The position numbers were made by a program, and so were the translations under genes. From the NCBI RefSeq assembly GCF_965363235.1, contig NC_134843.1, forward strand, positions 87,515,795 through 87,579,794: a stretch of DNA of 64,000 nucleotides, given 5' to 3'. Source of the stretch: Mytilus galloprovincialis. Lineage: Eukaryota > Mollusca > Bivalvia > Mytilida > Mytilidae. The notes beneath the pieces were generated by a model. It was given only the letters and a program-made list of their open reading frames with translations, was not told where the DNA came from and ran no database searches. Positions 1-56,667 of this stretch are shown here, piece by piece (position 1 is the first letter of the stretch; every line of letters starts with the position of its first letter).

Positions 1-149
1 ATTTCGCAATGAACCCACTGCAAATCAAGAGGAAGAAACAACCACACATATGTTCCTGTTACAATAAGATTTGAAATGTAAATGTATTACATAATCCGTA
101 TCGCCCTTGTCATGTTAGATGCAAGATTGAAAATAAAAATACAAAAAAT
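1..149 (-). promoter_or_regulatory. Upstream promoter module of an fp-3S gene lying left of the window
   Basis: Read on the minus strand, this stretch matches the module upstream of the other S genes: the ACATGACAAGGG box, the GGAACATATGTGTG box and the TTTCTTCCTCTTGATT box in the same order and spacing. It is closest to the minus-strand module of pseudogene C, sharing the GACAAGGGCGATACGG form and the same GTTCATTGCG tail, at a constant offset of 19004 bases. By that alignment the partner's start codon would lie about 82 bases left of position 1. Whether that gene is intact cannot be seen here. Confidence 0.75.
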
Positions 150-289
150 GCCAAAATGATTAAAAATAAATTGCTCAGAGAAAAATTTAAGGTCTTTCCA
201 CCAGGAAGGATATATTTTGATATAAAAATATCAAAATTTGAATTGAATGTGAATTTTAGCGACAAATGACAGCTTATTGTACGATTGGT
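150..289. promoter_or_regulatory. Central spacer of a head-to-head (bidirectional) fp-3S promoter
   Basis: This spacer of about 140 bases lies between two inverted copies of the S promoter module. Its edges are the inverted GTATTTTTATTTTC tracts. The same spacer is present at 19154-19293 in the opposite orientation, although the flanking modules there are in the same orientation as here. It may hold shared regulatory sites, but I recognise no specific one. Confidence 0.65.
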
Positions 290-446
290 ATTTTTTGTAT
301 TTTTATTTTCATTCTTGCATCTAACATGACAAGGGATACGGATTATGTAATATATTTACATTTTAAATCTTATTGTAATAGGAACATGTGTGTGATTGTT
401 TCTTCCTCTTGATTTGCAGTGAGTTGATTGAAAATATATATATAAA
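290..446 (+). promoter_or_regulatory. Promoter module and TATA box of fp-3S gene A
   Basis: The conserved upstream module of the cluster ends in a TATA box (TATATATATAAAG, TATAAA at 441-446), 78 bases before the start codon of gene A. In order it holds CTTGCATCTAACATGACAAG, GGATACGGATTATGTAAT, GGAACATGTGTGTGATTG and TTTCTTCCTCTTGATTTGC. The same boxes precede S genes D, E and G. A diverged version precedes F gene B and both F pseudogenes that keep exon 1. Transcription probably starts about 25-30 bases after the TATA box. That it directs foot-gland expression is an inference from the gene it serves. Confidence 0.7.
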
Positions 447-523
447 GCGCAGACAATATTCAGCCGAATAAAAGTATTTCTCAACAATCAGCGTATCCTT
501 GCAAACGGTTAGATCAAGAAGCA

Positions 524-2732
524 ATGAAGACATTCAGTTTCACAGTTATGATGGCTTTAGTCCTAATTGGATTATTTGCCGTGCAGAGTGGTAAGTAAAG
601 ATTATTTATGTCCTTTTTGGTAATATAGATATTCTACTGTTTCGTTTCTTAAACCTCATTGGCTTTCAAATAATTGCCTTTGAGCATTCCGGATAAAGGT
701 AAATGCAAAAAAGTGCTTTAGGCGTAAGACATTTATAACATGATGTTTTCAATTTGTTTTATCAAACTTTTAAAATCTATAAAATGGCGGATAACTTTTC
801 ATAAGCACAAAATATATAAACAAAAATCCAGTGTCTTTGTAAAAGCTTCGTCATATTCAATATAACGGTTTAACAATATAACCAAATTTAAAACGAAACT
901 GTCGTACAAGTGAGAGGTTTAGCGCTTTAAAACCAGGTAAAATCCACCATTTCTACATTTGAAAATGCCTGCACCAAGTCAAGAATATGACAGGTATTGT
1001 CCATTCATTTTTTATGTGTTTTGTCATTTGATTTTGCCATGTGATTATGGACTTGCCGATTTGATTTTCCTCTAAGTTCAGTATTTTTGTGATTTGACTT
1101 TTTGAAACAGTTAAACTCATTCTTTATGTCTATCAAATTGCGAAATCATAACAACAATCGAAACAGGAAGATTTAATGATTTGCTTTCAGAATTATTTGC
1201 TCTTCTATTTGTCATTAATTCGAAATTGTTGAAAACAAGTTATTGATTATTTGCTATAGATTGTTTTCCACGTATATTTTGAAAATTCTGTTTATATATT
1301 TATCTTATTATCATTTACTGACACATGACAAATTATAATGTAAGATTTATTTTCACTCTAATTAATTTATCCATATATTTTTCTGGTATTTTTTTTTTTT
1401 TTTTACAAAGAAACAAGTTTCAAACAGCGATTATAAAAACATTTGTTCCATACTTAACAAAGATGATTTATATTTTTATAATCCTTTTTTCAGATGCAGG
1501 CTATGTAAGTTTTGAAATTTTTAAAAACTTTTATATGACATGAAAATCATAACGTACGACGCTTACCTCGACACCAGAAAAAAAACAAATGAATAAAAAC
1601 AGTCACACACAATGAATTTCTATTTAACAATTTAGTGAAGTCATATAATTTGCGTAGATTTTGATAACGGGTTTTATATAAATTTAACAATAAAAATCCA
1701 AGACAATTTTCTTATAATATTATCAATGGTAATCGTTCTGGGTCAAACATTTTTGACGATTTAGTTTCAGAACATAAATTTGATCAAATGCAACTGATAA
1801 GGTTTTGTCTCAACGAATACAAGCCGTCCTGGTGCAATATTGGAAGAGTCATAAAGCCTGTTTTTGTTTTGGTTTTCGAGTATATTGCCGTATCGTTTGG
1901 TCGGGGTGTTTTCCCTTTTTTTACCAGAGCATTATCATTTTGACTGTTGAATTTAAATGTCTATTTGGTAACATTGGCCACTCTTTTACAGAGTGTTATA
2001 TCTTTATTAATCTGCCGGTTTAAGAATTGAACAAACACAGTAATTGACCACGTTTTCAAATGCAACACGATTTCATATCATTCTTCTTGTATAACAAAAG
2101 GGTATACTTACTTAGTAAAACACAAGTATTGCAAAATGTGTTGATCATTTCTTTTTTTTTTTTTTTTTTTTGGGGTGTTTCCTCAATTTTGAATTTTAGA
2201 TATAACTGCAATATATATTCAAATATTTATTAATTTATTTGAAAAAATCCCCATTCCTTAATTCACTGTTTCTAAAGAGTGGCACACGTGTTAACCAAAG
2301 ATAAATCAACCTGTTGAAATGGATTGGAGAGTTAAATGTTTTGTGATTACTATAATGTTAACTACCTGCAGTTGCTGAATTGTCACCAATCTGTAAGATA
2401 CAAATATTGATAAATGTATATATAATAGGAATGGATGAAACAAAATAAACAAGAAGGCGGCAGCTACTTAATAATATTGATATAGTGTCATTGTTTTAAT
2501 TGATATTACGCAGTTTTTAATTGCCTTATATTTCAACATCATCGTTTATTCAATCTTTAATCTTTTTGTCTTCATATTTTAGGGTTATTATCCAGGATAT
2601 GGTTTACCATACAACAATGGTTACCATGGTTATAACGGATACACAGGCTATCACGGAAATTATGGGTGGAATAAAGGCTGGAATAACGGTCCCTGGGGAG
2701 GACCATACGGAAACAAAGGCTACATATATTAA
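524..2732 (+). CDS. fp-3: Foot protein 3, slow (S) variant, gene A: intact three-exon gene
   Basis: Secreted byssal plaque adhesive of 75 residues. Coding exons are 524-590, 1494-1504 (11 bases) and 2583-2732, all with GT-AG borders (phase 1, then phase 0). Exon 1 encodes the signal peptide MKTFSFTVMMALVLIGLFAV plus QS. The microexon completes Asp and adds Ala-Gly-Tyr, so cleavage after SDA would leave a mature protein of 51 residues starting GYGYYPGYG. The mature part has 13 Tyr, no Arg, two Lys and repeated GYHGYNGY-type turns, with GWNKGWNNGPWGG near the C-terminus. This matches the low-charge fp-3S type as I know it from Mytilus. Tyr is probably hydroxylated to Dopa (family knowledge). 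The start is fixed by the conserved CAATGAA context and the signal peptide. An AATTAAA lies about 35 bases after the stop. Intron 1 holds old repeat copies at 640-760 and 885-1120, and intron 2 at 1805-2040. Confidence 0.9.
640..1120 (+). repeat. Old dispersed repeat copies in intron 1 of gene A
   Basis: Two bivalve-type dispersed repeats lie here. The first (about 640-760) carries the CATTCCGGATAAAGGTAAAT motif and an AAAAGTGCTTTA tail. The second (about 885-1120) carries GTACAAGTGAGAGGTTTAGC and AAACCAGGTAAAATCCACCA. Both occur at the same intron place in gene D (about 19670-20110), and the first also in genes E and G and pseudogene C. They were therefore inserted before the genes duplicated. 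I see no coding capacity. Confidence 0.6.
1805..2040 (+). repeat. Old dispersed repeat in intron 2 of gene A
   Basis: A common bivalve repeat marked by TATATTGCCGTATCGTTTGG, ACCAGAGCATTATCATTTTG and TTGGCCACTCTTTTACAGAG. The same copy sits in intron 2 of genes D (20810-21045) and E (29970-30215), in G in diverged form (about 50780-51120), and in pseudogene C on the other strand (about 17155-17425). It is an ancestral insertion of the gene family. The open frames over it are chance. Confidence 0.6.
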
Positions 2733-3909: not shown

Positions 3910-5091
3910 ATGAATAATATCAGTGTCGCAGTGTTGGTGGCTTTAGTCCTTATTGGATCATTTGCTGTGCAAAGTGGTAAGTAAAATTTTGTCTTGAAAA
4001 TGTTGTATATTACAATTTGTTGATAGATATTCTTTTGCTGTATTTTTTTGTTTAAATTTCAATGATTGCAAAAGTTTCCGAGATCAGTCTCTATAAAAAT
4101 ATCTATTCAAAATATAAGTGAAAGAGTAAACCATTTCAAAACATCAAATTTAATTGTATTATTGTAGTAATTAAACTAAGCCATTTAAATTATACACCAT
4201 ACCATAGAAAAAAATTAAACATGCAACTTTTCTTTACTTCTTATTATATCAATCACAAAATAGTAATCTTTATTTATCGTGAAATCATATCCATTTAAAT
4301 GCAAACTAGGTAAATGCTGCATTATTGACCGTTTGTTAAATAATATCAAAATACCTCAGTATATCACAGTTTTGTTTTTTCATTAAGATGTTTATATTTG
4401 ATATGTTATTAAGCCTGGTAAATAATGAACTTATACATTAGATTTACGAACATTCCTCATTGAGTAACAAAAAAACTCATTCATTGTTGATTTGTTTTTT
4501 AGATGCGAGTGATGTAAGTTTGTTTATTTAGTTTTGAAAGTGACATAACAAGACTAAACTATTTAATGTATTGAATAGATATAATTTAAATACTATACAA
4601 TATTGGGTTAAATGAACATTATAAGAGATATATGAGAACCCTTGTTCATATAAATTGTTAGCAAATACAAGTATAAATAATATGCATTGTATCAGGTGTA
4701 TCTTTATTCCATTGATCCGATGCAACATGTCTAAATGTTTTAAACTGTTTTAAAATATAAATATATTTCGAGGGACTGTGATATAACGAGCTTCAAATCA
4801 ACAGTCATTTAAATCATATGCAAGTTTGTTCATACACAAGTATTATGATTTGATTGTTAATATTACGAACTTTTTGAATTTTTATATTTTTTGTCACTAA
4901 AATTGATTCTGATTTGTATCGTTTCAACATTTCAGTATTATGGTCCAAACTATGGTCCTTCAAGACGTTGGGGAGGTTATGGCAACTATAACAGATACAA
5001 TGGCAGACGTTATGGCGGTTATGGTGGAAATAAAGGCTGGAACAGAGGGTGGAGACGAGGTTCCTGGGGACGACGAAAATATAATTATTAA
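3910..5091 (+). CDS. fp-3: Foot protein 3, fast (F, Arg-rich) variant, gene B: intact three-exon gene
   Basis: Byssal interfacial adhesive of 77 residues and the only intact F gene in the window. Exons are 3910-3976, 4503-4513 (11 bases) and 4936-5091, with GT-AG borders. The precursor begins MNNISVAVLVALVLIGSFAV, which I recognise as the fp-3 signal peptide. The microexon encodes Asp-Ala-Ser-Asp, and cleavage after SDA leaves a 53-residue mature protein starting SDYYGPNYGPSRRWGGYG. It has 10 Tyr, 10 Arg and 4 Trp, with the family motifs YYGPNYGP, NYNRYN, GRRYGGY, KGWNRGW and a basic C-terminus GRRKYNY. In known fp-3F proteins Tyr is converted to Dopa and Arg partly to 4-hydroxyarginine; that is family knowledge. 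Differences from the fp-3 I remember are Trp for Tyr after SRR and a longer SWGRRKYNY tail. AATAAA is at 5161-5166. The introns are short (526 and 422 bases). Confidence 0.93.
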
Positions 5092-7747: not shown

Positions 7748-7783
<36 letters not shown>

Positions 7784-7865: not shown

Positions 7866-9520
7866 ATTATTATTAACATCTGCATTCCTGGAACAGGTGT
7901 TATTCGGAGGTTTATTTACCATTGTCTTTCTATTTATTTTGATTTTTATGTAATCGATAGTTTGTAGGAGTATTTTTTGTTATACTTTTTTTTCGAAGGC
8001 TTAATGGTTGCCTCTCCTTGATACTTACTTTCAACCGCAATTTTAAACGCTGAATGTATTTCATTTTATACATTTGTGTTCAAATTGGTGTACACCAATA
8101 ATTATAAAAACACTTAAATCTAGAATTACAACTGTTTAATCAACATTTGCATTTCTCAATGGTTTCATTTCACTGCAAATAATGCATTGCTGAATATGTG
8201 ATCAACTTAAATAGACATTTTACGAAATACATTTAACCTTGCAAACCCATGCTCCTGGTTTTATATTTGTAAAATATATATCAAAATATATATCAACGTT
8301 TACAGTTAAACACATTAACTGTCCATACAGGCTTAATTCATTTTTTTATAAATCAGAACTATATATAGTTACAAGTATGGTCGACGGACTATGTGAATAT
8401 CAAACATTGTCACCCTCAATCAGGTTAAAATACTTCTTATTTGAGTTGCTGTCCTAAAATAACGGATTTGTTCTATTTTTGTGTTATTTTTTTTTTTTCT
8501 ATTAATATCGTACTTCGGTACTGGCATGAAAATACGGAGTTTTTTTGTGTTATTAAAATTTACTGTTACAAAATGATAGAAATTATTATAAATTAAGGAA
8601 TGTATCTCCCTCATGCAAAGCTCTGATTCCTTCCACGGATTTGGCTATACTTTTTGTACCTTTTGGATTATAGCTCTTCATCTTTTATATAAGCTTTGGA
8701 TTTCAAATATTTTGGCCACGAGCATCACTGAAGAGACATGTATTGTCAAAATGCGCATCTTGTGCAAGAAAATTGGTACCGTTAATTTTATTAATCATGA
8801 ATAGATTTTTAAGTAAAAGAAACAAAATCAGCAAGATAAGTTCTACAATTAAGTCAAATGACCGAAATCGTCAGTTAACTCCATTTAATTTATTTATTTT
8901 GCCAATGTTCTGCGTATTTGCCTTTTAATAAAAACAATTATACTAGATAAATGGAAATTTATAAATCACAAAATTTATAGGACAAGATCTAAAATATATC
9001 AGCATGGCCAAAATTATAAAACAACTTCGTTATAGTTGTTGTTGCATTATTATCATAATTAAGTTTTTTTTGAAAAGTACAAAAGATAAATAGAAATTCG
9101 ATAAAAATATTATCAGCAAGACAATATGAAGATGGATAACAAAAGATCAATTTTTCAATTGTCTTCGTCTTCTTTTAAAAGTTATTGACACGCAAGGTCG
9201 TTACATTTGATCCTTTTGAACAAATACTAGCTTAATATCAGTATTAAAGAGATGATAGGTAAGAAAAACGTTATGTCTACAATGTTGAGTAGAGTCCATT
9301 GAAGATTATGAAGACAAACGAATGTGATTGATGTATATATGCTTATTACAGCCTCTACTTAATTTTTTTCAACAATTTTGTGGCATTAAAAAACAAATTT
9401 GAAACTGAAAATACTTTTAGAAAAGATCGGTATAAACAGTATCAGGTAACACGATTGATTACAAATATTAATCTATCCAAAAAAGAACTCACAGAAAGTG
9501 TTTCATCAAATTTCAAAATC
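7866..9520 (+). repeat. Array intergenic block, first copy (direct repeat of 25.2-28.7 and 42.2-48.6 kb)
   Basis: It begins near CTGCATTCCTGGAACAGGTG and runs through ATCAACATTTGCATTTCTC, GACCGAAATCGTCAGTTAAC and AATTGTCTTCGTCTTC. The same series, in the same orientation, precedes genes E and G. In those places the block leads into an S gene promoter. Here it stops near 9.5 kb and is followed by the inverted B'-C pair. A bivalve repeat copy at 8603-8795 (GGATTTGGCTATACTTTTTG, then CATCACTGAAGAGACATG) is nested in it. No gene is seen. Confidence 0.6.
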
Positions 9521-10440: not shown

Positions 10441-10739
10441 GTCCATACATACAAGTAATATGTTGCTGTACTAACACTTATAAAGATATCATTGTTTCAA
10501 TAATTGTATTTTTGTCGTTCCCATGAACCTCGTCTCCAGCCTCTGTTTCAGCCTTTATTACCGCCATATCCGCCATAACGTCCGGAATATCTATTGTATC
10601 TGTTATAGTTGCCACCTCCACAACGTCAATACAAATCAATTATGATGACAAAATATATAAACATTCATAAAATTCATAATATTGCCAATCAAATAAATAT
10701 ACTAGTGTATGAACAAACTTCCCGATGATTTAAAACAAC

Positions 10740-13700
10740 TTTGGCTATTCTCTGCCCTTTTCCCGGTATTCATAATTTAAAATGTTTTGGCTTTTGGCTT
10801 CAACACTTTTAAAAAATTTCGGAAACACATGTACAACGGATGTAAGATAAGTTTCCTGTTTTAGACTGATGTTAAGCATGATACAACTGTCAACAAAATG
10901 AGGAAGTACGAATTATGAAACAATATGACGGTATGACATTATTCCTTCAAAGATGGTGGCAAATGTTTATTTTCGTGCAACGTGTTTTGTCATTTTTATG
11001 TTACGCGCAGACATGAAAAAGGATCGCCATCATTGTGTTTCGTAAAATTGGTTAAAAAAATATAACAAACACCTAGATAGTCCCTTGGTACATCGATATG
11101 AATAACTTGTCCAGCTCTAAGTTAGTCTATTTCATCGAATCCGTACCCGAGTCCATTGAAGTCACCCAATCTTGTAGCGCTGTGTTAGGATAAGGCCCTT
11201 CAACAGACGACGAATTCCTAGACCAACTTGACATAATCGGTTACGAATTGTTATGGCGATATTCTATTGTTATTTTCCCAGTGGGTTTGTGGTGCTTTTT
11301 AAGATGCATTATCAAATCGATTCCGGAAATGAATAATGCGGATGTGTTTGCCTTGACGTAACATCGTTTAACGTGACCTGCCACCTTCGGGGCGATCATT
11401 TGTCATGCCGGTATCTCTTAACGTTTCTTTTACATAAGTAAAACAGCTATCAATGTGATATCTTAAACCATAGACAAATAACCAAATACAACATGTCGAA
11501 TGTCAAACAAATCTTTACTAACTAACAAGATTTTCGGAGTTGATTTAGCCGGCGTAAAATGATCAAAATTACTTTTTATAAGTAAAATATGCCAGATCGT
11601 TTTATATGTTGACTTTATCGGTAATTTGTACATTTTTCCTTTGATGTGTACTCGCTGATAATGTCAGTATTAGTGGACTGGCCGTGATATAAAAGTTATT
11701 GGGTCAGTACGCAAGTGACATGTTCGAATGAAACGCGTAAGGATCTACTTTCCCCTTTCATTCAAAAAATTGCGCCTGATTTTTTTCGCAGAAACGCACG
11801 ATGTTTTTGGCGAATGAAACATTTGCCATTGTTTGAAACTTTCACAAAGATAGTTTAGCCTTTTCGAACGATATTTGTGAAAATGTGAACAGAAAATGTA
11901 TAAAAAAAAAAACAAGATAGACTTTAAAACAAAATGCGTTATCTATAATTGACCTATATGAAGCTTTCCTTGTTATTCACAAGGACGTACAACTAGCATA
12001 TCGTCCATGCTATCTGAGATTTTATTCACACAATACCAATACATAGCCTAGTGCTGTTCCAAGTAGTTTTCTTTTTCTGTTTCTTGAGAAGTATTGGTTT
12101 TACCTGTTCAGTCACTATAAAGTGTTACAATTCATATTTAAACGCAACACATTAAAAGTGACCAAAAAGGTACCGCTATCGCATGAGAGAAGCTAGAAAA
12201 AATGAAAAATAAAATTGACGCATTGTCGACATTTTTGTGGGACCGTCATATATAATATTTAAAAGATGTGGTTTCATTGTCAATATAAGGACAGATATTC
12301 AAAGAACAAAGAACAAAAAAGTTAACATATTCAAATGCCGATCTAGGATAAATTAAAAAAGGGGAGTTACCGGGGGCACCATACTGTAAAAGTCTGCATT
12401 GTCATTGATCAAAATTGTAGCTTTTATAAGGGGTGGCTGTGACCAGGGTCGCCTTCCCCTAAATCCGCTTCTGAAATTAAAGGTAACTGCAGGGCCTTTA
12501 AACTCCAAGTTGTATATTTCTGGTCCGTGTTGAAAATAAAGGAACATGACTTTGAAAAAAGCAAGAATTATACGCTACGGTCCCCCATTCTTATTTCTGA
12601 CTGCTGATGCTTTGTGAAAAATAAAGAGATTTAACTTACCGGTATGCTACCATTATATCTGTCATTGTAAGAGTTATGTCCGAAACAGAAAATTAATAAA
12701 ACGCATGCAATAATACCTTTTCATTACTTTGTGCTAGAGAACGCCTTGTTTACTGCACTGTGACAAAATTTCAAATGACGTAATGCAGCCTGTGACGTCA
12801 AGTGTGATTCGCCGTGACTCGACGCGAAAAATAAGTTCGTTTGTTGTTTTCTCTACTATTGTAGTGATTTTGATTTTTTTTTTTTAAATTACCGATAAAC
12901 AGAATAAAGGACGTTTTGTGTTTGATACTGATTTTATCACAGGAAATATCAGGCTCGCCCTTCGGGCTCACCTGATATTTTACTGTGATAATGTCAGTAT
13001 CAAAAACAAAAAGTCCTTTATTCTATATATATTATCTAAAGGCTTTCGTTTGGATAAAGCTGGAAAGATAAATTTACACTTTTTAAGGCCACAAACAGTT
13101 TTTTTGTAACTTGCCTAGAACTGCGGTAAATGTATCTTTCTTTAACAAAAAGATATTTTTTTCTAAAGGGAAACGCATGATGTGGAAAGTTTCTTTATTT
13201 ACTCAATAAAGAAAACATTATCCGTATTTCAAACGTATATTTGAATGGTATTTCGAATCTTTCAGAACTTTTATGTCATTGATAAGAACAAGAACTTGTC
13301 CCGTGTTTAGGTACATATCAATTGAATTACTGAATACCTGTGTTAAACAAAAATTAAATTGAACCGATTTTCAGATATGCAGAATATATCAATTGTTGCA
13401 TTCATATAAGGAACTTCCAAGAAATTGTATAAGCAATGTTATTTAACTTAGTCTAATTGTGCAAAATTCGACAACAGTGACCAGTATATATAAAAATAAG
13501 TGCAAGAAAGGGACTGAATACCACGACAAAATCATCACCAACTTTTTTTGTGTAAAATTCATAAACCTATATGTCTGTCTATATTGGCATAGTTTTGAAA
13601 CTTTTTTGTATGCCTTCTTTGCAGTTTTAAAGCAAAGGGAGTTTAAGTTTTAAATGTCATCGAGAATGTGTTTCTATACTCAAAATTAGTCGTCTGAAAG

Positions 13701-13930
13701 AATTAACTGATTTATGCATAATACATGGCCATTTCTTAAAATACTACAAAAAATCTATTTTGTATATTTGATGTTCTTGGTATCAAGTGCGTTTAAAAAC
13801 CATGGTTAAAAAACTACAAATTACCGCACACAATCTCATCTCCCACAAAAAACAGGAAGTGAATAAATCTTACAGGAACGAAACAAAATATTTTAGTAAC
13901 ACCCACAACAATAATCTGCATGTTAAGATC
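10740..13930. other. Insertion of about 3.2 kb in intron 2 of pseudogene B', no gene seen
   Basis: Outside these borders, intron 2 of B' aligns with intron 2 of pseudogene F: GTTTGTTCATACACTAGTAT on one side and GCGGAAGATAGCTAG on the other, read on the minus strand. Inside there is no match to the other copies. I find no coherent frame longer than about 70 codons, no clear terminal inverted repeat and no target duplication. It contains one very strong hairpin (12902-13023). Its origin is unknown; it may be several nested insertions. Confidence 0.5.
12902..13023. repeat. Long near-perfect hairpin (foldback) of 122 bases
   Basis: The left arm (GAATAAAGGACGTTTTGTGT, then TTGATACTGATTTTATCACA and GGAAATATCAGGCTCGCCC) pairs with the right arm (GGGCTCACCTGATATTTTAC, TGTGATAATGTCAGTATCA, GTCCTTTATTC) around a three-base loop near 12961. 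The few mismatches are mostly single bases. A related half lies at about 11650-11700 (CTGATAATGTCAGTATTAG). It resembles a foldback or MITE-type element. I see no target duplication. Confidence 0.65.
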
Positions 13931-14689
13931 TAGCTATCTTCCGCTCATAAATTCCGACATGCAGGTGAGCATATAGCAAGGTTATTTAGCACCCATCACG
14001 CATATTATTTTTTTTTCGAATTCTGTAGACATAATTTATTAAACTTCATATACAATATTTTCCCTGTTGGTCGCTTGTAGTTGAGACATGGATCAAACCG
14101 GGCTTACTGACAGTTGATTTGATGACCGTTATATCACAGTCCAGCAAAAAATATATATTTTTTAAATAATTTAAAACATTTAGACATTTTGTATCGGATC
14201 AATGGAAGGAAGATACACTTGATACATTGCCTAGTATTAATACTTGTATTTTCTATCAATTAATATAAACAAGGATTCTCATATATCTCGTCCATTTTTA
14301 TATTGTTCATTTAACCCAATATTTTATATTATTTAAATTATACCTCTTCAATTCATCACACAGTTTTGTCTTGGTATGTCACTTTAAAAACTACAGGTAT
14401 TAACCAACTTACATCACTTGCATCTGAAAAACAAATCAACTATGAATGAAATTTGAATAGTCTTGAAATATATTGATTGTCTTTTCAATTGTTTGTTACC
14501 CAATGAGTGTTGTGTTCGCAAATCTAATATATAAGTTCATTATTTATCAGGCTTAATAACATATTAAATATAAACATAACATAAATACTTTAATGAAGAA
14601 ACAAAGCTGTGATATGCAGAGGTATTTTGACATTATGTAATAAACGGTCAATAATGCACATTTACCTAGTTTGCATTTTAACATTTACA

Positions 14690-14940
14690 TCTGGCTATTT
14701 ATTTTAGGTATTTTTGTCATATAGCTCTTCAACAGTTTCGATTATTTATTCATCTTCGGATTTCAAATGTTTGACTTTGAGCGTTCCTGATGAAGGTAAA
14801 TCCAGAAAAGCGCTCCGGACGAATAGAATTATTAAACGTGTTGTTTTCAATTTTTTTAATGAATATCATTCAAAGATAAATAAAGTTTACAAGTTATTGA
14901 TTTATAAAATAGGAAGTAAAGAGAGGTTGCAAGTTTAATT
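14690..14940 (+). repeat. Dispersed bivalve repeat in intron 1 of pseudogene B'
   Basis: Marked by AGCTCTTCAACAGTTTCG, GCGTTCCTGATGAAGGTAAA and AGAAAAGCGCTCCGGACG. It is the same family as the intron-1 repeat of the S genes but in better condition, and it runs opposite to the host pseudogene. The 74-codon frame over it is fortuitous. Confidence 0.55.
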
Positions 14941-15298
14941 GGCGCAATCAAACTATATATTTTTATGGTATAACCTAAATTAAATGTTTTGAAATGTTAT
15001 ACTCTTTGGCAGATATTTTGAAAAGATATATCTTATAGAGACTGCTACCAAATTTTTATGCAATAATCGAAAGATTAAACAAAAAATCCGACAAAGAAAG
15101 AAATATCAGCAAATTGTTATGAACAATATTTCCAAGACAAAGTTTTACTTTCCACTTTACACAGCAAATGATCCAAATAGGACTAAAGCCACCAACACTG
15201 CAACACTGATATTATTCATTGTTTGCTATTGAAACTGTTTGCAGAAAGGAGCTGATTACTGAAAATTATCCTATATTCTAGTTGACAATTGTTTGCAC

Positions 15299-15460
15299 TT
15301 TATATATTCTTTGTTTAGTCAGTTCACTGCAGATCTGTTAATCAAGAGGAAGAAATAATCACACACATGTTCCTTAAACAATGAGATCAAAGTTAAATTA
15401 CAAATGTCAGTGCATAGCGTAATTTGTATACATCGTTAAATTATTTGCAAGAATGGAAAT
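15299..15460 (-). promoter_or_regulatory. Promoter module of fp-3F pseudogene B'
   Basis: The reverse complement of the gene B module: TATA at 15299-15304, then AATCAAGAGGAAGAAATAAT and CACACACATGTTCCT in complement form, ending at GAATGGAAATTGAAA. The boxes look intact although the gene is dead. Confidence 0.65.
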
Positions 15461-16382
15461 TGAAAAAGAGGAAATTGAAAATATGTAGGGTATTTCATGA
15501 TAATGATTTACTTTAAGAATAATATAGATGTTGTAATCAGAGTTCTGCTAGAGTCAGCTTTTAATTAAAAAAAATGCAAAACAAATATTCGAAAAACCCT
15601 AGCAATTTATCAAAATTGGGTATTGTCTCAGCTCAAAGGTTTTGTGTCCTTTCAAATTTAATTTCGCATGGCAGGTGTTAATGTGTTGCAGGATACACTG
15701 TCATTGTGGACGCTTTATTTTGTGTTTATGTGATTCCCTCAGTTTAAAGTCTTTACATTGATCAGTATCTTCTTTCGAATGATCAGCTGAAATTCGATAA
15801 ATTACTGGATATTTTAGTATCTGTGCAAGATAAACTATTTTCTAACACCATGTTTTTAGCGAGGGGCATTTTTTTGGTAAATATGTGTATGAAATATGAA
15901 AATATGAGGATGTGTTATGAATGCCATTGAGACAACTAATCACCAGAGCTCAAATTATAATCTTTCGTAGCATAGTAATCTGAAATAAAAAAAAAAACTG
16001 AAAGTTACTAGTAAGACATCGAGTATGTAAAATTCAAGCTCGATTGAATCAAAAATGAATTTCTAAAATGACATTACTTCAGTCAATACTAAACAATTTT
16101 ACATTTTTCTTCAATTCCAATGGCATAAAAAATAATGGTCCTAATAATGCCTCGTTTTGAATTATTGAATTAAACAAAATGATGCTCTTTCAAGATTAAA
16201 AATCTTAATTTCCAGATAATATTGTAATGTTTCAATACCATTTATAAAATATTTGTGTATTTGCCGTCAGCAAATCAATCAGCTATAACGATAATGATGG
16301 ATGACTATATACAAATAAGAATCAAGTCGAAAATCAGAAAGCTTTATCTATCTTATATATCAACATTGATAGGTTTTTTTTA
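15461..16382. other. Inverted S-to-F intergenic region between pseudogenes C and B'
   Basis: Inverted counterpart of 2733-3664. It includes the bivalve repeat fragment at about 15880-15990 (GAATGCCATTGAGACAACTA). No gene is seen. The region next to pseudogene C keeps the 3' flank of the S genes (ATTCCAATGGCATAAAAAAT on this strand). Confidence 0.6.
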
Positions 16383-16794
16383 CTAATAATTATAGAGGTA
16401 GCCTTTGTTTCAGTATGCTCTACCCCAGTGACCGTTGTTCCAGCCTTTATTTCAGTCATAATTTCCGTGATATCCAGTGTATCCGTCATAACCATGGTAA
16501 CCATTGTTGTATGGTTAATCATATCCTGGATAATAATCCTGAAATATGAAAAAAAAATTAAGATTGAATCAATGATGATTTTGATATATAAAGCAATTTA
16601 AAAGAGCGTAATATCAATTAAAACAATGGCACTATATATCATTGAAGCAGCTGATGATTCAAGCCTTCTTTTCTATGTTGTTTCATCCATTCCTGTAAAC
16701 TGTATCTATATTTGTATCTTTTAGTTTGGAAATAATATAGTAAATAGTAAACATAGATAAAAGCATAACAATTTATTTCTCATCCATTTTCCCA

Positions 16795-17425
16795 TTTACA
16801 ACCACTGGGTCGATGCCGCTGCTGGTGGAGATTTTTTTCCCCGAGGGTATCACCAGCCTAGTAGTCAGCACTTTTTGTGCTGATATGAATTGTCATTGAT
16901 ATGGTTATATTTATAAATTTATTGTTTACAAAATATTGAAATACTAAGGCTTTTTTACCTCAGGCATAGATTGATTACCTTAGCTGTATTTGGCAAAACT
17001 TTTAGGAATTTTGGTCCTCAATGCTCTTCAACTTCGTGCTTTATTTGGCCTTTTTAACTTTTTTGGATTCGAGCGTCACTGATGAGTCTTTTGTAGACGA
17101 AACGCGCGTCTGGCGTATATATTAAATTTAGTCCTCGCATCTTTAATGAGTTTATTGTAAAAGACTATCGAATGTTACCAAATGGACATTCAAGCTTAAC
17201 AGTCAAAATGATAATGCTCTGGTAAATAAACAATTAAAGAAAGAAAAATAAACAAACAAACCATACGACAATATACAAACCAAAACGAGAAAACTGAAGA
17301 CTGAGCAACAGAAACCCAACAAAAACCGACTTGATGATTGTTTCGATATCACACCATGACGGCTTGTATTGGCTGAGACAAAACCTTATCATTTTGCATT
17401 TTATTAAATATATTTTCTGAAAACT
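16795..17425 (-). repeat. Two dispersed repeats in intron 2 of pseudogene C
   Basis: About 16795-17150 is a minus-strand copy of the very common bivalve repeat with ACTGGGTCGATGCCGCTGCT, CCCCGAGGGTATCACCAGCC, GAGCGTCACTGATGAGTC and GACGAAACGCGCGTCTGG. About 17155-17425 is the ancestral intron-2 repeat of S genes (CATTTTGACTGTT-type box in complement). No gene is supported. Confidence 0.6.
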
Positions 17426-17639
17426 AAATCGATACGGATGTTTCACCCAGAACGATTACCATTGAATTTATTACAAATAAAATTGTCTTGTTTCTGTATT
17501 GATAAGTTTATTATAAAATCCGTTATCAAAAACTACGTAACTAAATTGTTGAATTGAAATTCATTGTATATGACTGTTTTAATTCATTTGTTCTATTTTT
17601 CTGGTGTCGACCTGAGCGTCTTACATAATGATTTTCATG

Positions 17640-18996: not shown

Positions 18997-19153
18997 TTAT
19001 ATACATTTCGCAATGAACCCACTGTAAATCAAGAGGAAGAAACAACCATACAAATATTCCTGTTACAATAAGATTTAAAATGTAAATATATTACATAATC
19101 CGTATCGCCCTTGTCCTGTTAGATGCAAGAATGAAAATAAAAATACAAAAAAT
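18997..19153 (-). promoter_or_regulatory. Minus-strand promoter module of pseudogene C
   Basis: Inverted copy of the S module, most like the one at positions 1-149. With 19294-19449 it forms the arms of an inverted repeat around a spacer of about 140 bases. Confidence 0.7.
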
Positions 19154-19293
19154 ACCAATAGTGCAATAAGCTGTCATTTGACGCTGAAATTCACATTCAA
19201 TTCAAATTTTGATATTTTTATATCAAAATATATACTTCCTGGTGGAAAGATCTTTAATCGTTCTCTGAACAATTTGTTTTTAATCATTTTGGC
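19154..19293. promoter_or_regulatory. Central spacer of the C-D bidirectional promoter, flipped relative to 150-289
   Basis: It matches the reverse complement of 150-289. For example, CAAATGACAGCTTATTG in the first copy appears here as CAATAAGCTGTCATTTG. Flanking arms are direct counterparts (offset 19004). Confidence 0.75.
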
Positions 19294-42633: not shown

Positions 42634-43250
42634 TATGAAAATGCGGATTTTTTGTGTTATTAAAATTTGCTGTTACAAAATGATAGAAATTAAAATAAAT
42701 TAAGGAATGTATCTCCCTCATGCAAAGCTCTAATTCCTTTCACGGATTTGGCTATACTTTTTGGACCTTTTGGATTATAGCTCTTCATCTTTTATATAAG
42801 CTCTGGATTTCAAATATTTTGGCCACAAGCATCACTGAAGAGACATGTATTGTCGAAATGCGCATCTGGTGCAAGAAAATTGGTACCGTTAATTTTATTA
42901 CTACCACTGGGTCGATGCCTCTGCTGGTGGACTATAAGTCCCCGAGGGTATCATCAGCCCAGTAGCCAGTACTTCGGTACTGGCATGAAAATACGGATTT
43001 TTTGTGTTATTAAAATTTGCTGTTACAAAATGATAGAAATTATTATAAATTAAGGAATGTATCTCCCTCATGCAAAGCTCTAATTCCTTTCACGGATTTG
43101 GCTATACTTTTTGGACCTTTTGGATTATAGCTCTTCATCTTTTATATAAGCTCTGGATTTCAAATATTTTGGCCACGAGCATCACTGAAGAGACATGTAT
43201 TGTCGAAATGCGCATCTGGTGCAAGAAAATTTGTACCGTTAATTTTATTA
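42634..43250 (+). repeat. Tandem pair of a bivalve repeat unit of about 350 bases
   Basis: The unit ATGAAAATACGGATTTTTTG ... GGATTTGGCTATACTTTTTG ... CATCACTGAAGAGACATG ... AAAATTGGTACCGTTAATTT occurs twice in a row (start near 42634 and near 42985). The first unit keeps the ACTGGGTCGATGCCTCTGCT / CAGCCCAGTAGCCAGTACTT end, which the second lacks. A single related copy is at 8603-8795. The two overlapping 80-codon frames are this repeat. Confidence 0.65.
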
Positions 43251-48852: not shown

Positions 48853-51800
48853 ATGAATACATTCAGTTTCACAGTTATGATTGCATTAGTCCTTATTGGA
48901 TTATTTGCTGTGCAGAGTGGTAAGTAAGGCTTTGCTTAATTTAAGTGGTTCATTATTTCTTAATATTTTATTTTGTTGATAATTGTCATCTTCAGTATTA
49001 CAACTCACAACTCCTGCTAGTGCCGTGTGTCACATATGGCTAGTATTAAGATTCTTTTTGGTTTTATATATCTTCAAATGTTTCGGTTCTTATACATCCT
49101 TGGTTTTCAAATATTTTGCTTTGAGCTTTCCTGATGGAGGTTAATATTAAAAAGCGCTTCGAACGCAGAAAATTCATGACGTGTTGTTTTCAACTTATTT
49201 TGTCAAACATAGAATGTAACTTTGAAATATATAAAATGTTGGACTGTTTTTGATAAGCAAATAAGCTATACATAAGAATCTATTTTCTGTGTAAAAGGCT
49301 TCGTCATTTTCAAAATAATGCTCTACCAGTTGTATCAGGTAAACTCGGTCTTTTCGTACCACGTTTTAGAAAATTAAAACAACAAATAAAAAAAAATAAG
49401 AACTTTATGATTTGTATCTAAAATTAAGAATTTTAACCTTACTATGTTTCTTTTATTTGATACTCGTTGGAATTTGTTTTATATCTTATAGCTCTCCTAT
49501 TGTCCTTTCCTTATATTTTCAAAATTCTGATATACAATATTTCTATTAGAATTTGTCTGACACATTACACAATCTTATGTTAGAGGATCTTAGATATACT
49601 GACGCTATAATTTATATTCACCTAATTTTTCAAAAATCTATTTTATTTCAAAGATAAAAAATTTCGACATTGATAACACATATTTTTCATAAACTAAATA
49701 AAGAATAAAATCATAATTTATAATACTTTTTTTTTCTTCAGATGCAGGTTATGTAAGTATGAAAATATCTGAAGTTGTTAAATGATTTAAATTTTATAAC
49801 TAATTATCATATAAGACGTTGAAGCACATGAAGAAGTAACAAATCAATAAAAACAGTTTCATACGATGATATGCAATTGAATAGTTTTTAGATGTCATAT
49901 CAATAATGTAGTTTTCAATATTGTGTTCTATAATAAACTTAACAGAAGCTGGAAGACTATAAGTTAAGGATCAAAATAAGCTAAAAATATTGATAGGTCA
50001 TGGAGCTTCTTTTCGAGATATTTGATTAATAAAATATGACGAGAAAAGACTGCTTCGGACTTTTACCTTATATTTTTGCATTGGTACTATTTGGGTCTCA
50101 AATAAAAAAAAAAGGGGGGATTAAGAATCTTCTTAAATTTGGTCAAATTACCTTTTAAGAGCTATTAAGTCTTATGTTAAAAGATAAATAGGTGTTATGG
50201 GGCAAAATATTTCACCTTGAACGTATGAAAAAACACACAGGTGTCCAAAACCTCACCTAAGTACATCCTGAAGCATTCTTTACAGTTAAATAATGTCGAA
50301 ATATTTTCAGGTATGATGGCTACTAATATTTGGGTTTTTTAATTTTGAATTAAAATTAATATTCCTGTACAAAACTAGCTTTGTAGTGACTATAAGTCGT
50401 TCAAATCTTTGTTCTTCGGTGTATGATGAATGAATTGGCAGACATATTTCTTCAAATTTCATATTCAGCTTTTTTGTGAATGTTTAAAAAATAACTTTGT
50501 GTTATAGTCCTACTTCCGGATCCGAATCCTCGTCTTCGATTATTAAGTATTTCTTACGTCATTCATTTAATCTAGTACATTTTTTACGTCATCGTTTTTT
50601 TTTTCCACTAATATTCAGTTTCAAGGTGATTTAGTATTTCTGATAAAACATATACATAGTTCACAATTATAAATACCGTATCGTTATTTGCTTATTTATT
50701 AGATAATTCAAAGTTTGGTGACTATATTGTATGTTGTAAGCTTCTATCCAATCGAAATTGAAATAATCAATACACCAGATGCAGTTTAGTAATAACAGCC
50801 CTCCCTATTTCCCTCGAATGTCACAAACAAATGACATTATATACTTACATGAGCAACGCAGAGAGTTTTATATTTGTAGTTGTGTCACCTCACTCTTCCT
50901 GAGCACCCGGAATCACCTTTTGTTTTTGTCGAGAATCGTGTTGCTCTGTTTTCAGTTTCTCTTTTATCCAGGCATTGTTGTATCGTTTTAATCGGTTTTT
51001 TTTTACTCAGTGTTATCAGTTCGACTTTCCATCTGTTATAGTCAATTTTTGTATCTTTTGATTCTCCTTTATAGGGCGTTTCATCGTTATCAATCTACCA
51101 GTTTTTGGTATTGAAAAGTAAATTACAATTTCACCACGTTTACAAATGCAAAATAATTCCAAAGAAATATTATGTTTTTATCAAAAAGGACATTCTCACT
51201 TCGTTAAACACAAATAGTGCATAACGTATTGATCATGTTTTTTTTTGGGGGGGGGGAAGTATGATATATTAATATATTATGTTTGCATTATTCTTTCGTG
51301 GTATGAATACAATCTAAATTAACTCATCATAGACACCATGACGTAAAACATTTGAAACATAACTGCAACATATATTCAAATGTTTATATTAAGGTATTTG
51401 AAAAGTTCCCCGTTATAGTTCCCCGTTTTATAATTTACTGTATATAATCATTAATGTGTTTATATAGCGTCACGCGTGATAAGTAAGCGGAAACCAATCT
51501 GATGAAATACATGGGAGAATAAAATGTTATTCTATAATTCAATATTTCAGATTTACAGTTACTGAAATGTTCATCAACAATTATATATGGATTTGATATA
51601 TCTCACAGCTATAGACGAAATATAATTATAGAGTGATGTAATGCAGTTTTAAATTGCTTTATATTTCTATAATTTAATTTTGGATGTAACGCGTCTTCTG
51701 ATTGGCTGACGTTATTTTTGTATCAGCCCATAGACATAATTTAGTCATGTGACCGTGACGTCATCAACGTTTTTCGTGATTTTCTGCGGTTTAAAAAAGA

Positions 51801-54800
51801 ATTTAGAACTAAATTATAAGAAATGACTGTAATATTTTTTCTGTCTATTCGAAATAACATAAAAAATGTGGTGCACACTGTTAAATAATAGAGATTATGA
51901 AAATTTTATATTTTCAATAATCTGGTTTAATTCAATCGAATATTTGTGTGGGTGCGTGGGTGTTGCAGTCTGTAGCTCATTGCCATATTCGGCATGGCCA
52001 TAGATGGCGCTCGCAGCATGAATCAGAATTTTGGAATTTCCGTATCAGCTTGAATTAGAATTTTGGAATTCCCGTATCGGGCACTTGTTAATTTGCTGTC
52101 GACTTGAAAGCAGGTGTTTCACAAATAAGTTAAACTATTTAAAAGAAAAAGAAAAGATGCCAAACAAGAGAAATGCCATAGGATCGCCATCCAGGGCCAT
52201 GGGAAAGAAGAGAAGAACGGCTAACAGGACAGGCGGACAGAGAATGCAGAACGAGGAAATCCCACAAAAGAAGGACGGAGCTGGACGGAGAAGAACTGCC
52301 AAGAAAACACAAGGGGTCGGACACGTGGTGACAGAAGGACCGGTGGAAACTACTGATTTCTCATCAGGTAATGAGTCGGAGGAGGATGCACGAGCGTTCC
52401 CCTCTTTAAGGCACGACCCGTTACACCAAAACTTTGAAATTGCAAATAATTCCATTGATTTCTCTCCGTCACAAGAATCTAGCATTCATGACACAGTGGG
52501 GGAACACGTGTCTTTTAAAATTAAGAAAAAAATTTGGGAGGGAAAGTTTATTGAGCTTCATTCTCTTTTGAGAACGCGAAAAGCAATGGAAGAGGTGGAC
52601 GAGGGCGATTTGAAATTAAAAAGGGGGAAAATTTGCATTGAAAAAAGATCGTCGAGTGTTTATTTGTCCATAAATGAATGGACTTCAGCATTCATGGTTT
52701 TTATGAGTGTCTACATTGAGAAATACAGCACACGGGCACAGGAATTGTTAAAATATATGCGCGATATAAGACTAGCGGCAACGAGGTCAGAAAACTGGGC
52801 CACCTATGACGAGCAATTTAGGCTAAAAATAGAAAAGAATCCAAATTTATCTTGGGGAAATATACACGGTGAATATTGGCTATTACACATCACATCTCCC
52901 ATAGTACAAAACAGTGTGTCAGTGCAATCATAGGGTTATAGAACAAATACACAACATCCGCTAATCTGATGTTATAAATTCCTAACTGTCAGTGTTAATT
53001 ATAAGTCAATTCAACTATAAAAGTGATAACGTATAATGTTAACATAACAATCCTCCCTCTGTTAATTTAGAAGATCAAGATAAACAAGATTAATCTCTAG
53101 TGAATGAAAGTAATAAATTCAATTTGCACTCAATTGAACTTAATAGCTACAAGTTTTACTGTCTATATTTTTAATGTTCAATTATGAAATCCTAAACCTA
53201 CAGTGATATCACTACACTAACTTAACCACAAATATTTACAGTCATATGTTTCTAATAAGTCTCTCTGGTGCCTTTCTTACTATTTCTGTGCGGTGCATAA
53301 CGATAGTATCATTAGCATTTTCAACTGTTTTATTTTTGGTTATTTTGGTTTGTTCGGATTCATTGTTATTTTCAGAGTTTTCGGTATCGCAATTGAGTTA
53401 CATGTTGGTATTGTTATGAATTCAGTGTCAATATCAGATATGGTAATTTCAAGTATGTTTGGTATGTTTTTATTTTCCTGCGGTACGAATTCACGAATCT
53501 GATCAATATGTCTCTTCCATACTAAATCTCCAAATTGGACTTGATAAGTTACTGTTCCGAGTTTATGAACGATAGTTCCTTGTTTCCACTTGTTATTGTC
53601 TCTATAGTCTCTTTAAGATTTGGACTCCCTAATGGATGCAAAAAGAATATTTGTTTTTTACCATCTCCTCATTTTATTATTATTCTCTGTGGAGCTAATG
53701 ATTTGACAGATTTAGAATTGACAGGGAATGGTTTAATTGAAAATGTAAAAATGGTCTACCCTACGTTACCAGGCTTTATTTAAAAAGGTTATTATAATAT
53801 GGTCTTCAATGCTACAGTGCGATACTGGCATGTTGCACCCTTAAATGCGGGTGCAATAATAGAACAGAACAGAAAAAGAGAAATTTAGTGGCCAAAAACT
53901 TTGTTACAGAAAATGGGGGTAAAGCTATATTACACGAGAACATTAAGGCAAGTGAAGTGTCTTTATACAGAACAAATGGAACTAATTTGTCACAAACTGG
54001 AAATCAGGTTTTCTTGAATAATATACAAGGGTGTGGGGGTTGAGTCTTTCCTACGTACACCATAATCAACTTTACCTAAGATTCAATAATGAAAATGTTG
54101 TGGAGGTGAGAACCCATGTCAGATTTGGTTGCTGACTTGAGCTCTCATGTGGCGGTCCAGGGAGACTGGTAGTGATTGGGGGATTATTTCACTCGGCCCT
54201 TGCTCTGGGCCTGACAAGTTCTAAAACTTGCAGGTTTGGAAAATGTGGTTAGTGGTAACGGTGGGGTCTACAGATGGGTTACTCTGGGACCTCCTCCACC
54301 TCATCTTATAGAGGGGAGGCCTACACCTGCCAACAGGTGGGGCACTAATAACTGGAGCATTGGTAATACGAGTGTTTTCCCCGGTCACTCCCCATGGTAG
54401 GTGGTGGTGTAACCGTGTTTAACTACCAGGGGTTTTATGACACTATGTCAACATAGGTCAGCTGATAGCCATTGTGTATAGGTAATCGGTAGTCACCCTG
54501 GCGCCTCAACAAAATATTATAGAATACTCTGTAGCCAAAGTAATGCCACAAAGTAAAAATGTATATTCAGGTCATGAAAATGTAAATACAAGTTGGTGTA
54601 ATAAAATGTATTGTTTTTGTATAAGTTGTAAATGAAATACAGAGGATGGAACCTCTACACAAATGAGTATAATATACAGAAAGTCTGTACAGTATTTTAA
54701 TTTTGGTATTTGTGAATTACAATTAACAACACACAAAGAGAGACAACTATAGTTTAATTTTTAACATAGTTTAGAAAATACGTCAACAACTCTTGATCGT

Positions 54801-56667
54801 TGTTCTTCGTCTCATTGTTATTCGTTCAGTATTGATATAGGGTCTTCGTATATGAGTATTGCAATTAATAGAGATTATAAAAATTTTATATTTTCAATAA
54901 TCTGGTTTAATTCAATCGAATATTTGTGTGGGTGCGTGGGTGTTGCAGTCTGTAGCTCATTGCCATATTCGGCATGGCCATAGATGGCGCTCGCAGCATG
55001 AATCAGAATTTTGGAATTTCCGTATCAGCTTGAATTAGAATTTTGGAATTCCCGTATCGGGCACTTGTTAATTTGCTGTCGACTTGAAAGCAGGTGTTTC
55101 ACAAATAAGTTAAACTATTTAAAACCCGCCCACCCTCCCTATGAGAATAGTTGCTGCTGTTTTGTTTTATATTTTCAGGCACTTGTTTGATGTATTTGAT
55201 TGGAATATTATGGTTACGAGTATCCAGGCTGACCTTCATAGTATTGGACCAATACAGGATAATTTCGAATAAACTTGCGTTTCTATGAATTGGACATTTC
55301 AGTTATTCAGCACTTTTTAACATATTATGGACTATTGTGATTTAAGCATCCAGAATTAATTTTAGTTTTTAGTAATTAACAATTTTAATAATTGGAAAGA
55401 AAACAAGACACTTTTTAGAAATTAATCATCTTCTACTATCCTTAGGCGCAGAGTCAATTTTGAATGGGGGGAGGTCCAGGGAGACTGGTAGTGATTGGGG
55501 GATTATTTCACTCGGCCCTTGCTCTGGGCCTGACAAGTTCTAAAACTTGCAGGTTTGGAAAATGTGGTTAGTGGTAACGGTGGGGTCTACAGATGGGTGA
55601 CTCTGGGACCTCCTCCACCTCATCTTATAGAGGGGAGGCCTACACCTGCCAACAGGTGGGGCACTAATAACTGGAGCATTGGTAATACGAGTGTTTTCCC
55701 CGGTCACTCCCCATGGTAGGTGGTGGTGTAACCGTGTTTAACTACCAGGGGTTTTATGACACTATGTCAACATAGGTCAGCTGATAGCCATTGTGTATAG
55801 GTAATCGGTAGTCACCCTGGCGCCTCAACAAAATATTATAGAATACTCTGTAGCCAAAGTAATGCCACAAAGTAAAAATGTATATTCAGGTCATGAAAAT
55901 GTAAATACAAGTTGGTGTAATAAAATGTATTTTTAATTCAAAGGATTGTTTTTGTATAAGTTGTAAATGAAATACAGAGGATGGAACCTCTACACAAATG
56001 AGTATAATATACAGAAAGTCTGTACAGTATTTTAATTTTGGTATTTGTGAATTACAATTAACAACACACAAAGAGAGACAACTATAGTTTAATTTTTAAC
56101 ATAGTTTAGAAAATACGTCAACAACTCTTGATCGTTGTTCTTCGTCTCATTGTTATTCGTTCAGTATTGATATAGGGTCTTCGTATATGAGTATTGCAAT
56201 TAACCCGCTACGCGCGTTATTCAGTGTGCACCAAATTTTTTATGTTAGTCTTTATAGACAGAAAAAATATTACAGTCATTCCTTAAATATCATTATTATC
56301 AAATGTAAAGCATATAAACTTAAACGCCAGCACATGCGCGTTCCGTCTATATAAGACTCGTCAGTAACGCTAAGATCGAAATAGTAAGAAAGTCAAATAA
56401 GTACAAATTTGAGGAGCATTGGTGACCCTAATTTCAAAAAAGTTGCTCAAAATACGGCAAAGATTATCTATTATCCTAATTGATTTAAACTTAATTGGTT
56501 TTTTTTTTTTTCTCATGTTTCAGGGTTATTATCCAGGATATTATGCACCAGGACCATACAGTGGTGGTTACCATGGTTATAACGGATACACTGGATATCA
56601 CGGAAATTATGGCTGGAATAAAGGCTGGACTAACGGTCCCTGGGGAGGATATGATTATGGGAAATAA
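48853..56667 (+). CDS. fp-3: Foot protein 3, slow (S) variant, gene G: intact, with a 6.8 kb second intron
   Basis: Secreted adhesive of 73 residues and the most diverged S copy. Exons are 48853-48919, 49742-49752 (11 bases) and 56524-56667, with GT-AG borders. The signal peptide is MNTFSFTVMIALVLIGLFAV. The mature part is GYGYYPGYYAPGPYSGGYHG, then the conserved GYNGYTGYHGNYGWNKGW, TNGPWGG, and a different short end YDYGK. AATAAA is at 56728-56733. The exon 3 acceptor (run of T, then CATGTTTCAG) lies only about 50 bases after a dispersed repeat (56315-56470). Intron 2 holds a mussel foldback element and, inside that, a 4.3 kb tyrosine-recombinase-type retroelement. The reading frame and splice sites are intact, so expression is plausible; correct splicing over this intron is the main doubt. 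Confidence 0.85.
51660..51885 (+). repeat. Left arm of a mussel foldback element in intron 2 of gene G
   Basis: Contains ACGCGTCTTCTGATTGGCTG, TCATGTGACCGTGACGTCAT, GAAATGACTGTAATATTTTT and GGTGCACACTGTTAAATA. Its partner arm is at 56204-56295 (CCCGCTACGCGCGTTATTCA, GTGTGCACC, AAAAAATATTACAGTCATT), truncated at its outer end. The two arms are parted by the 4.3 kb retroelement, which landed near the fold centre. Confidence 0.7.
51886..56203 (+). mobile_element. Ngaro/DIRS-like retroelement fossil with split direct repeats
   Basis: Order of parts: A1 (51886-52144), a frame of 300 codons (52031-52933), interior with a nested Ty3/gypsy piece, B1 (54154-54868), A2 (54866-55124), a unique stretch (55125-55472), B2 (55473-56203). 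A1 and A2 are nearly identical and of equal length, and B1 and B2 are nearly identical. The B1-A2 join equals the right end of the element fused to its left end, as expected for split direct repeats of tyrosine-recombinase retroelements. The frame's C-terminal half (EWTSAFMVFMSVYIEKYS, WATYDEQFRLKIEKNP, WGNIHGEYWL) resembles the first-ORF product of such elements in bivalves. No reverse transcriptase or recombinase part is recognisable, so the element is broken or non-autonomous. The repeat identity suggests a young insertion. Two head-to-tail elements sharing ends is an alternative reading. Confidence 0.6.
52935..53800 (-). mobile_element. Ty3/gypsy fragment (end of pol and start of the 3' LTR) nested in the Ngaro-like element
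   Basis: On the minus strand the region at about 53480-53600 resembles the integrase C-terminus of Ty3/gypsy elements (KWKQGTIVHKLG, VWKRHIDQIREF). Further along the same strand is a purine-rich tract followed by TTGTTATGTTAACATT, as at the start of an LTR. Borders are approximate. It is an incomplete, broken fossil that interrupts the host element. Confidence 0.6.

Follow-up and report, generated by a model that had tools for sequence, protein, structure and literature searches.

The many named variants of the mussel adhesive protein fp-3 (11 in M. californianus, 15 in M. unguiculatus; PMC7018726) raise the question of how their genes are arranged and which unit was duplicated. This was studied in a 64-kb window of the Mytilus galloprovincialis genome (contig NC_134843.1, hereafter C6), together with a search for fp-3 exons in the whole genome (1.385 Gb, 331 contigs). 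A preliminary description of the window had seen in it fp-3-like genes of alternating S and F types, a reading with which the exon searches and the reading of splice sites agree. Self-alignment of the window gives matches of up to 90% identity over 2.6 kb, so chance similarity is no concern. The F copies are presumably fp-3, given their resemblance to the Mefp-3/Mgfp-3 sequence; the best genome match to this F-type query has 90% identity. The genome search found at least 23 exon-3 and at least 23 exon-1 places, all within one stretch of about 458 kb on C6, and every scored match lies between 87.114 and 87.573 Mb; the window is the right end of this cluster. Exon 3 was found in at least 15 F and at least 8 S places (two F queries, one S query), exon 1 in at least 16 F and at least 7 S places. 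These counts are lower bounds, as the best candidates alone were scored (13 exon-3 places at E of 0.001 or better, 12 at E up to 0.1, and 8, per query; 20 and 23 exon-1 places at E up to 1). A further exon search added a truncated S exon 1 (C6:87515674-87515712). The letter-level map passes over 87.30-87.40, 87.41-87.4375 and 87.485-87.5058 Mb of C6 except for small matched loci. From 87.377 Mb rightwards, the strands of 12 F exon-1 copies strictly alternate between minus and plus; all four F exon-1 copies between 87.114 and 87.165 Mb have minus orientation.

The window contains eight copies with exons (A, C, D, E and G of the S type; B, B' and F of the F type) and one relic made up of flank only (Table 1). 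The total of nine given in the preliminary description is therefore right, while its three-exon plan applies to eight of them, the ninth being exonless. Its five intact genes were recovered as full three-exon frames (A, B, D, E and G, out of the eight), its end coordinate, 56667, is the end of the G stop codon, and the promoter of a tenth copy does lie at the left edge, with the ATG 83 bases to the left of window base 1. The tie between S and F has not been kept among the living genes here: of the four window S genes with full frames (A, D, E and G), A alone still has an intact F partner (B). The tenth copy is dead: its exon-1 frame is broken and a TGA interrupts the frame of exon 3. In B', exon 1 contains a nonsense codon, the donor has changed from GT to GA, and exon 3 lacks its 5' part and contains a stop; C has three in-frame stops in exon 3; and F has lost its start codon (ATT) and carries a TAG in exon 3. 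The relic matches the 3' flank of F genes only, and no exon match was found in it by the exon searches. G has a shorter, altered C-terminus and stands as a lone S copy, the exon searches having found no F exon after it within the window.

Table 1. Features of the fp-3 cluster. Positions are those of the window unless given on C6; exons are listed in the order of transcription.
Feature	Position	Strand	Description
Window	C6 (NC_134843.1) 87515795-87579794		64 kb
F-only units	C6:87400006-87409850 and C6:87437845-87450462		
Q1	C6 87.458-87.473 Mb		same layout as Q2 and Q3
Q2	C6 87.482-87.521 Mb		
Q3	10497-24134		
Arm junctions of Q2	515948/516079 (C6 minus 87,000,000)		
Arm junctions of Q3	534952/535083 (C6 minus 87,000,000)		
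Tenth copy (Q2 S-), promoter side	1-154	-	left arm of Q2; gene body left of window
Central spacer of Q2	155-284		130 bp
Gene A promoter and 5' leader	285-523	+	includes TATA-like box
Gene A, S type	524-2732	+	intact; right arm of Q2; exons 524-590, 1494-1504, 2583-2732 (stop included)
Gene B, F type	3910-5091	+	intact; exons 3910-3976, 4503-4513, 4936-5091
B', F type	10497-15219	-	pseudogene; left arm of Q3
C, S type	16386-18922	-	pseudogene; left arm of Q3; exons 18856-18922, 18154-18164, 16386-16538
Central spacer of Q3	19159-19288		inverted relative to Q1 and Q2
Gene D, S type	19528-21742	+	intact; right arm of Q3; exons 19528-19594, 20484-20494, 21593-21742
Relic	23327-24134	+	3' flank of lost F gene that once followed D
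Gene E, S type	28942-30909	+	intact; exons 28942-29008, 29653-29663, 30754-30909
F, F type	32443-37396	+	pseudogene; partner of E
Gene G, S type	48853-56667	+	intact frame; exons 48853-48919, 49742-49752, 56524-56667

The word tandem, under which the array had been described, misses a head-to-head layout. C (minus) and D (plus) face away from each other with their ATGs 606 bp apart, and the same distance separates the ATG of A from that of the off-window S- gene of Q2. These genes belong to a four-gene palindrome (F<- S<- / S-> F->) of which three copies were found, Q1, Q2 and Q3; Q3 lies wholly within the window, and Q2 with its right half. The pairs A-B, C-B' and D-relic of the preliminary description are thus present, but C-B' and D-relic together make up a single palindrome, one pair per arm, and A-B forms the right arm of a second one, which has its left arm beyond the window edge. 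As in an inverted-repeat amplicon, two arms enclose a spacer (130 bp) and the homology of the arms reaches it from both sides. The facing arms are 78.5-80.3% identical over 1.8-2.3 kb and 85-88% around F exon 3; at about 78-88% in the gene bodies, they fall short of the near-identity that conversion maintains between the arms of a palindromic amplicon. Q1 lacks about 507 bp at S- exon 1, and Q3 has lost its F+ gene except for the 3' flank. The exons of Q2 F- are some 29 kb apart, versus about 5 kb in Q1 and Q3, with about 25 kb inserted between them. The last 5.3 kb or so of this insert, the part that was analysed, contains a 428-aa frame (L030:979-2265) with a CCHC zinc knuckle (PF00098 above the cut-off, PF13696 just below), so part of a retroelement is likely present there.

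Splice reading gives one plan for the eight window copies: an exon 1 of 67 coding nt that encodes the signal peptide and ends in phase 1, a microexon of 11 nt bordered by an acceptor AG and a donor GT, and lastly exon 3. Translated, the microexon gives DASD in the F copies of the right end of the cluster, DAAA or DAAD in F copies farther left, and DAGY in S copies. It is also present off-window in Q1 F-, Q1 F+, Q1 S+, Q1 S-, F144, F152, F164, F401, F446 and S118 (where it reads DAGF); a search for it in F114 was negative, and Q2 S- has lost its acceptor. The survey covered the copies other than F437, F409, F377 and F391. Published fp-3 is cleaved after ...QSDA, so the microexon spans the presumed cleavage site and would encode two residues at the end of the signal peptide and two at the start of the mature protein; since it is 11 nt long, skipping it would shift the frame. 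A promoter of about 230 bp with a TATA-like box is common to 22 of 22 aligned exon-1 copies, S and F alike (24 copies were found, and two F exon-1 places were left out of the alignment). S and F copies have promoter, signal exon and microexon in common and differ in exon 3. In our reading of these sequences, one expression and secretion module would serve two adhesive cassettes, and the common promoter predicts that S and F are expressed in the same gland cells.

The composition and charge of the mature proteins were computed with the presumed cleavage site. In B, a full frame over three exons encodes a signal peptide and a mature protein of 53 residues, 10 of them Arg and 10 Tyr, which is of the F type: a Tyr/Gly/Arg-rich peptide of about 45-55 residues with YYGPNYGP near its start. 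The S mature peptides are Tyr/Gly/Asn-rich and Arg-free; A, D, E, G and Q1 S+ have no Arg and 13-14 Tyr in 49-53 residues. Net charge is +0.9 to +2.0 in these five intact S proteins, with 0-1 acidic residues each, and +7.8 to +10.4 in seven F proteins with 5-10 Arg. The Mfp-3S of M. californianus has been termed zwitterionic (PMC4275877). None of the five intact S proteins is zwitterionic (0 or 1 acidic residue), so the S copies are here called S-like by their composition and gene plan and are not regarded as Mfp-3S orthologues. Over the 213 nt of exons 1 and 3, compared in four intact S genes (the indels of G ruled it out), dN is lower than dS in six of six pairs, a weak signal given just 5-17 differences per pair. 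Four predicted peptide strings had no match in the published literature searched.

Which unit, then, was duplicated? The preliminary description had favored the S-F pair, and had proposed that flanks of S and F copies failing to co-align in order would speak against it; this comparison was made and the flanks do co-align in order. From the end of S exon 3 to the F ATG there are 1160-1178 bp in four of six pairs (Q1+, A-B, Q2- and Q3-), 1534 bp in E-F and 2147 bp in Q1-, and single alignments span the interval (e.g. 2275 bp at 80%). The duplication of the pair is thus real, but the latest unit is the four-gene palindrome, according to four of four block trees. In each of them left arms are split from right arms (support for the key split: S exon 3, 100; F exon 1, 100; F exon 3, 73; S exon 1, 98-99). 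G branches beside the left arms in the S exon-1 tree with a support of only 55, and the long branch of C in the S exon-3 tree partly reflects a poorly aligning stretch, for which reason its length was not used. Right arms of different palindromes are 90-96% alike (Q1-Q2, 94.4% over 6077 bp, through the spacer; Q1-Q3, 90.9%, and Q2-Q3, 90.1%, over 2.6 kb). Left-arm segments of at least 250 bp are 87.0-96.3% identical away from the outer edge of Q1, reaching 97% in the F exon-1 block, and the outer left arm of Q1 is about 84-88% identical to the others. E-F is 78-87% identical to the right arms, and 89-90% in the S promoter segment. Taken together, the arm-wise similarity and the trees suggest that the pair was duplicated first and the four-gene palindrome later. 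The right flank of Q1 is collinear with that of Q2 into the next F- gene (six blocks of at least 250 bp, 90.7-96.3%), so the palindromes are copies in direct tandem. Between the left arms of Q1 and Q3, identity in 250-bp windows drops near 87.460-87.461 Mb, within intron 2 of F-, from about 94% to values mostly of 81-89%, with one window at 72%; this likely marks a breakpoint of unequal exchange.

Q2 F- and B' (Q3 F-) have three lesions in common (exon-1 CAA to TAA, donor GT to GA and exon-3 TGG to TGA), so they were copied while already dead. These lesions are absent from Q1 F-, whose exons are open and whose reading frame is intact, so death does not extend to the whole left arm. All three S- copies have in common a TGA close to the exon-3 end; it removes the C-terminal end only and might be tolerable. 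Another exon-3 TGA is common to Q1 S- and C and absent from Q2 S-. As this S- stop joins Q1 to C and the F- lesions join Q2 to Q3, some exchange between palindromes is needed, and such mosaic sharing means that the history is not a clean tree. The spacer of Q3 is 91.5% identical to that of Q2 when reversed and 73.0% in the same orientation, a score of 65.5 that falls within the range of 500 shuffles (mean 61.9, maximum 80); those of Q1 and Q2 are 97.5% identical in the same orientation. Relative to the ATG, Q3 has the inverted state at 34 of 36 diagnostic sites from -299 to -235 (the other two are unclassed) and is direct at 15 sites from -129 to +32 as well as at -190, which places the switch in orientation between -235 and -190. 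A single switch is at odds with the site at -171, which is in the inverted state, and with those at -136 and +48, which are unclassed; three gap columns at the edge of the alignment (-301; one direct, two unclassed) were disregarded. The flipped spacer is a trace of recombination between arms, and is explained simply by recombination between the arms of one palindrome.

From the sequences, the cluster would most probably derive from an S-F pair that was inverted into a four-gene palindrome, which was then copied in direct tandem. Each gene would combine a secretion module (TATA promoter, signal-peptide exon, 11-nt microexon) with an S or F exon 3. The pair would have been duplicated to begin with; one pair would then have been copied in inverted orientation to give the palindrome, and the four-gene unit copied in direct tandem at least twice through unequal exchange. 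The left arms would mostly have decayed, being copied on while dead, and the S genes of the right arms would have stayed intact. The model of the preliminary description, a simple tandem duplication of S-F pairs with single pairs later flipped by inversion, fits the right end of the cluster, where D-relic, E-F and G form a direct-tandem series with co-aligning spacers (relic flank versus F flank, 82% over 820 bp; left flanks of E versus G, four blocks of at least 250 bp at 81-83%). Nevertheless, separate flips would not leave the same lesions or the same head-to-head junction in each unit, nor bring left arms closer to those of other units than to the right arms facing them; arm-wise grouping was found in all four trees. 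This model is already disfavored for Q1-Q3, and we consider it very improbable overall.

Two other explanations bear on the palindromic duplication itself. The right arms of Q1 and Q2 differ by only about 4-6%, which is near the heterozygosity reported for M. galloprovincialis (3.27%, PMC11183127), Mytilus being very heterozygous; one palindrome might thus be an allele placed in line, and part of the repetition an artefact of two alleles assembled side by side. Yet there are three units, with differing divergences (90-96% in the right arms) and each with its own changes (the loss of about 507 bp in Q1, the insert of about 25 kb in Q2 F- and the loss of F+ in Q3), and no N was found in the four assembled stretches examined. 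Two alleles cannot yield three copies, though they could account for one, and such an artefact seems improbable. Alternatively, ongoing gene conversion could keep the arms alike and make their grouping uninformative on the order of duplication. The flipped spacer does indicate that arms recombine, the sharing of lesions between palindromes is mosaic, and the facing promoters of Q2 are 89% alike beside the spacer versus about 80% in the gene bodies. Nonetheless, exchange between facing arms should homogenise a single palindrome, and in the four blocks it is the same-side arms of other palindromes that are closer, with one exception in the F exon-3 block (Q1 F- is 88.1% identical to Q1 F+ and 87.1-87.3% to the other F-). 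Conversion as the source of the arm-wise pattern is therefore improbable, and duplication of the whole palindrome is retained.

Further units lie elsewhere in the cluster. Two head-to-head units contain F genes only; one (F- 401487, F+ 409741) repeats the other (F- 437886, F+ 446885) in inverted orientation, with 84-92% identity in the main blocks, and short tandem-repeat arrays with a period of about 33 or 66 bp lie between their genes. Hidden S genes were sought between these F genes (C6:87437955-87446884 and 87401556-87409740) by sensitive blastn with the bodies of A, E and S118, and none was found: E and S118 had no match in either region and A had two short ones, of 64 and 34 bp, in 87401556-87409740. 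The same part of A matches many times in stretch R1, so this is taken for a dispersed repeat; C, the positive control, was recovered by all three queries. Near the left end of the cluster, an S-like exon 1 (87118298, minus) and an F exon 1 (87114339, minus) were considered as a third chemistry and rejected, since exon 3 was found for neither in 87.100-87.118 Mb. These exons (C6:87114336-87118366) keep the S-then-F order, and a DAGF microexon follows the S-like one. They are probably relics and possibly the oldest trace of the S-F pair.

Some other features of the window were recorded. Within intron 2 of G lie two pairs of direct repeats (51883-56203), one of 262 bp (99%) and one of about 730 bp (97.5%), whose near-identity indicates a recent duplication inside the intron, and a 300-aa open frame (52031-52933) that matched nothing in Pfam at E 0.01. 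Another repeat, about 270-280 bp long and present twice close together (42635-43250) and once 34 kb off (8510-8793), is 95-98% identical between copies and probably is a young mobile element. To the right of the array, three small open frames (60008-61997) have no Pfam match at E 0.01; in all, four window frames were compared with Pfam, none with a match.

Both types of protein have known counterparts, Mefp-3 (AF286136) and Mfp-3S (DQ165556) being listed in a review (PMC4275877). The F copies encode a Tyr/Gly/Arg-rich mature peptide that is close to the fast, Arg-rich Mytilus fp-3 F. The S copies are Arg-free, as befits the slow, Arg-poor fp-3 S, but their charge of +0.9 to +2.0 sets them apart from its zwitterionic form. 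Mfp-3S has been reported to self-coacervate (PMC4275877) and to shield DOPA from oxidation better than Mfp-3f (PMC9472010), and both mfp-3f and mfp-3s have been located at the plaque interface (PMC6352656); given these roles, a joint supply of S and F would make sense. In Perna viridis, three fp-3 copies are adjacent as here (pvir_s136476g24-26) and tandem duplication was invoked, inverted units going unmentioned in the accessible part of that source (PMC7971044). Perna fp-3 contains 15.7% Cys and 4.3% Tyr (PMC7018726); being Cys-rich, it is not the same type of protein. Mammalian sex-chromosome palindromes also have inverted gene arms, a short spacer and exchange between arms (PMC6790999), but the arms described here are about 78-88% alike in gene bodies rather than near-identical, and pseudogenes make up most of one arm; the likeness lies in form and not in kinship. 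The literature searched (titles and beginnings of abstracts, most subscription journals lying outside it) holds no description of a palindromic fp-3 layout.

These results give the fp-3 family a genomic address in one mussel, with S and F under one type of promoter and one signal module. Open and broken frames of the window copies can now be told apart, and their introns and flanks can be used for read mapping. The cluster could tentatively be seen as a variant generator, in which head-to-head palindromes drive unequal exchange and recombination between arms, a single module of promoter, signal exon and microexon acquires ever new exon-3 cassettes, copy number varies between mussels and the dead left arms serve as a conversion store, although we regard this as rather doubtful. 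The claim that variants arise by duplication of four-gene palindromes rather than of single genes is testable. Palindromic S/F units, many of whose copies are dead, may help to explain the origin of the many fp-3 variants.
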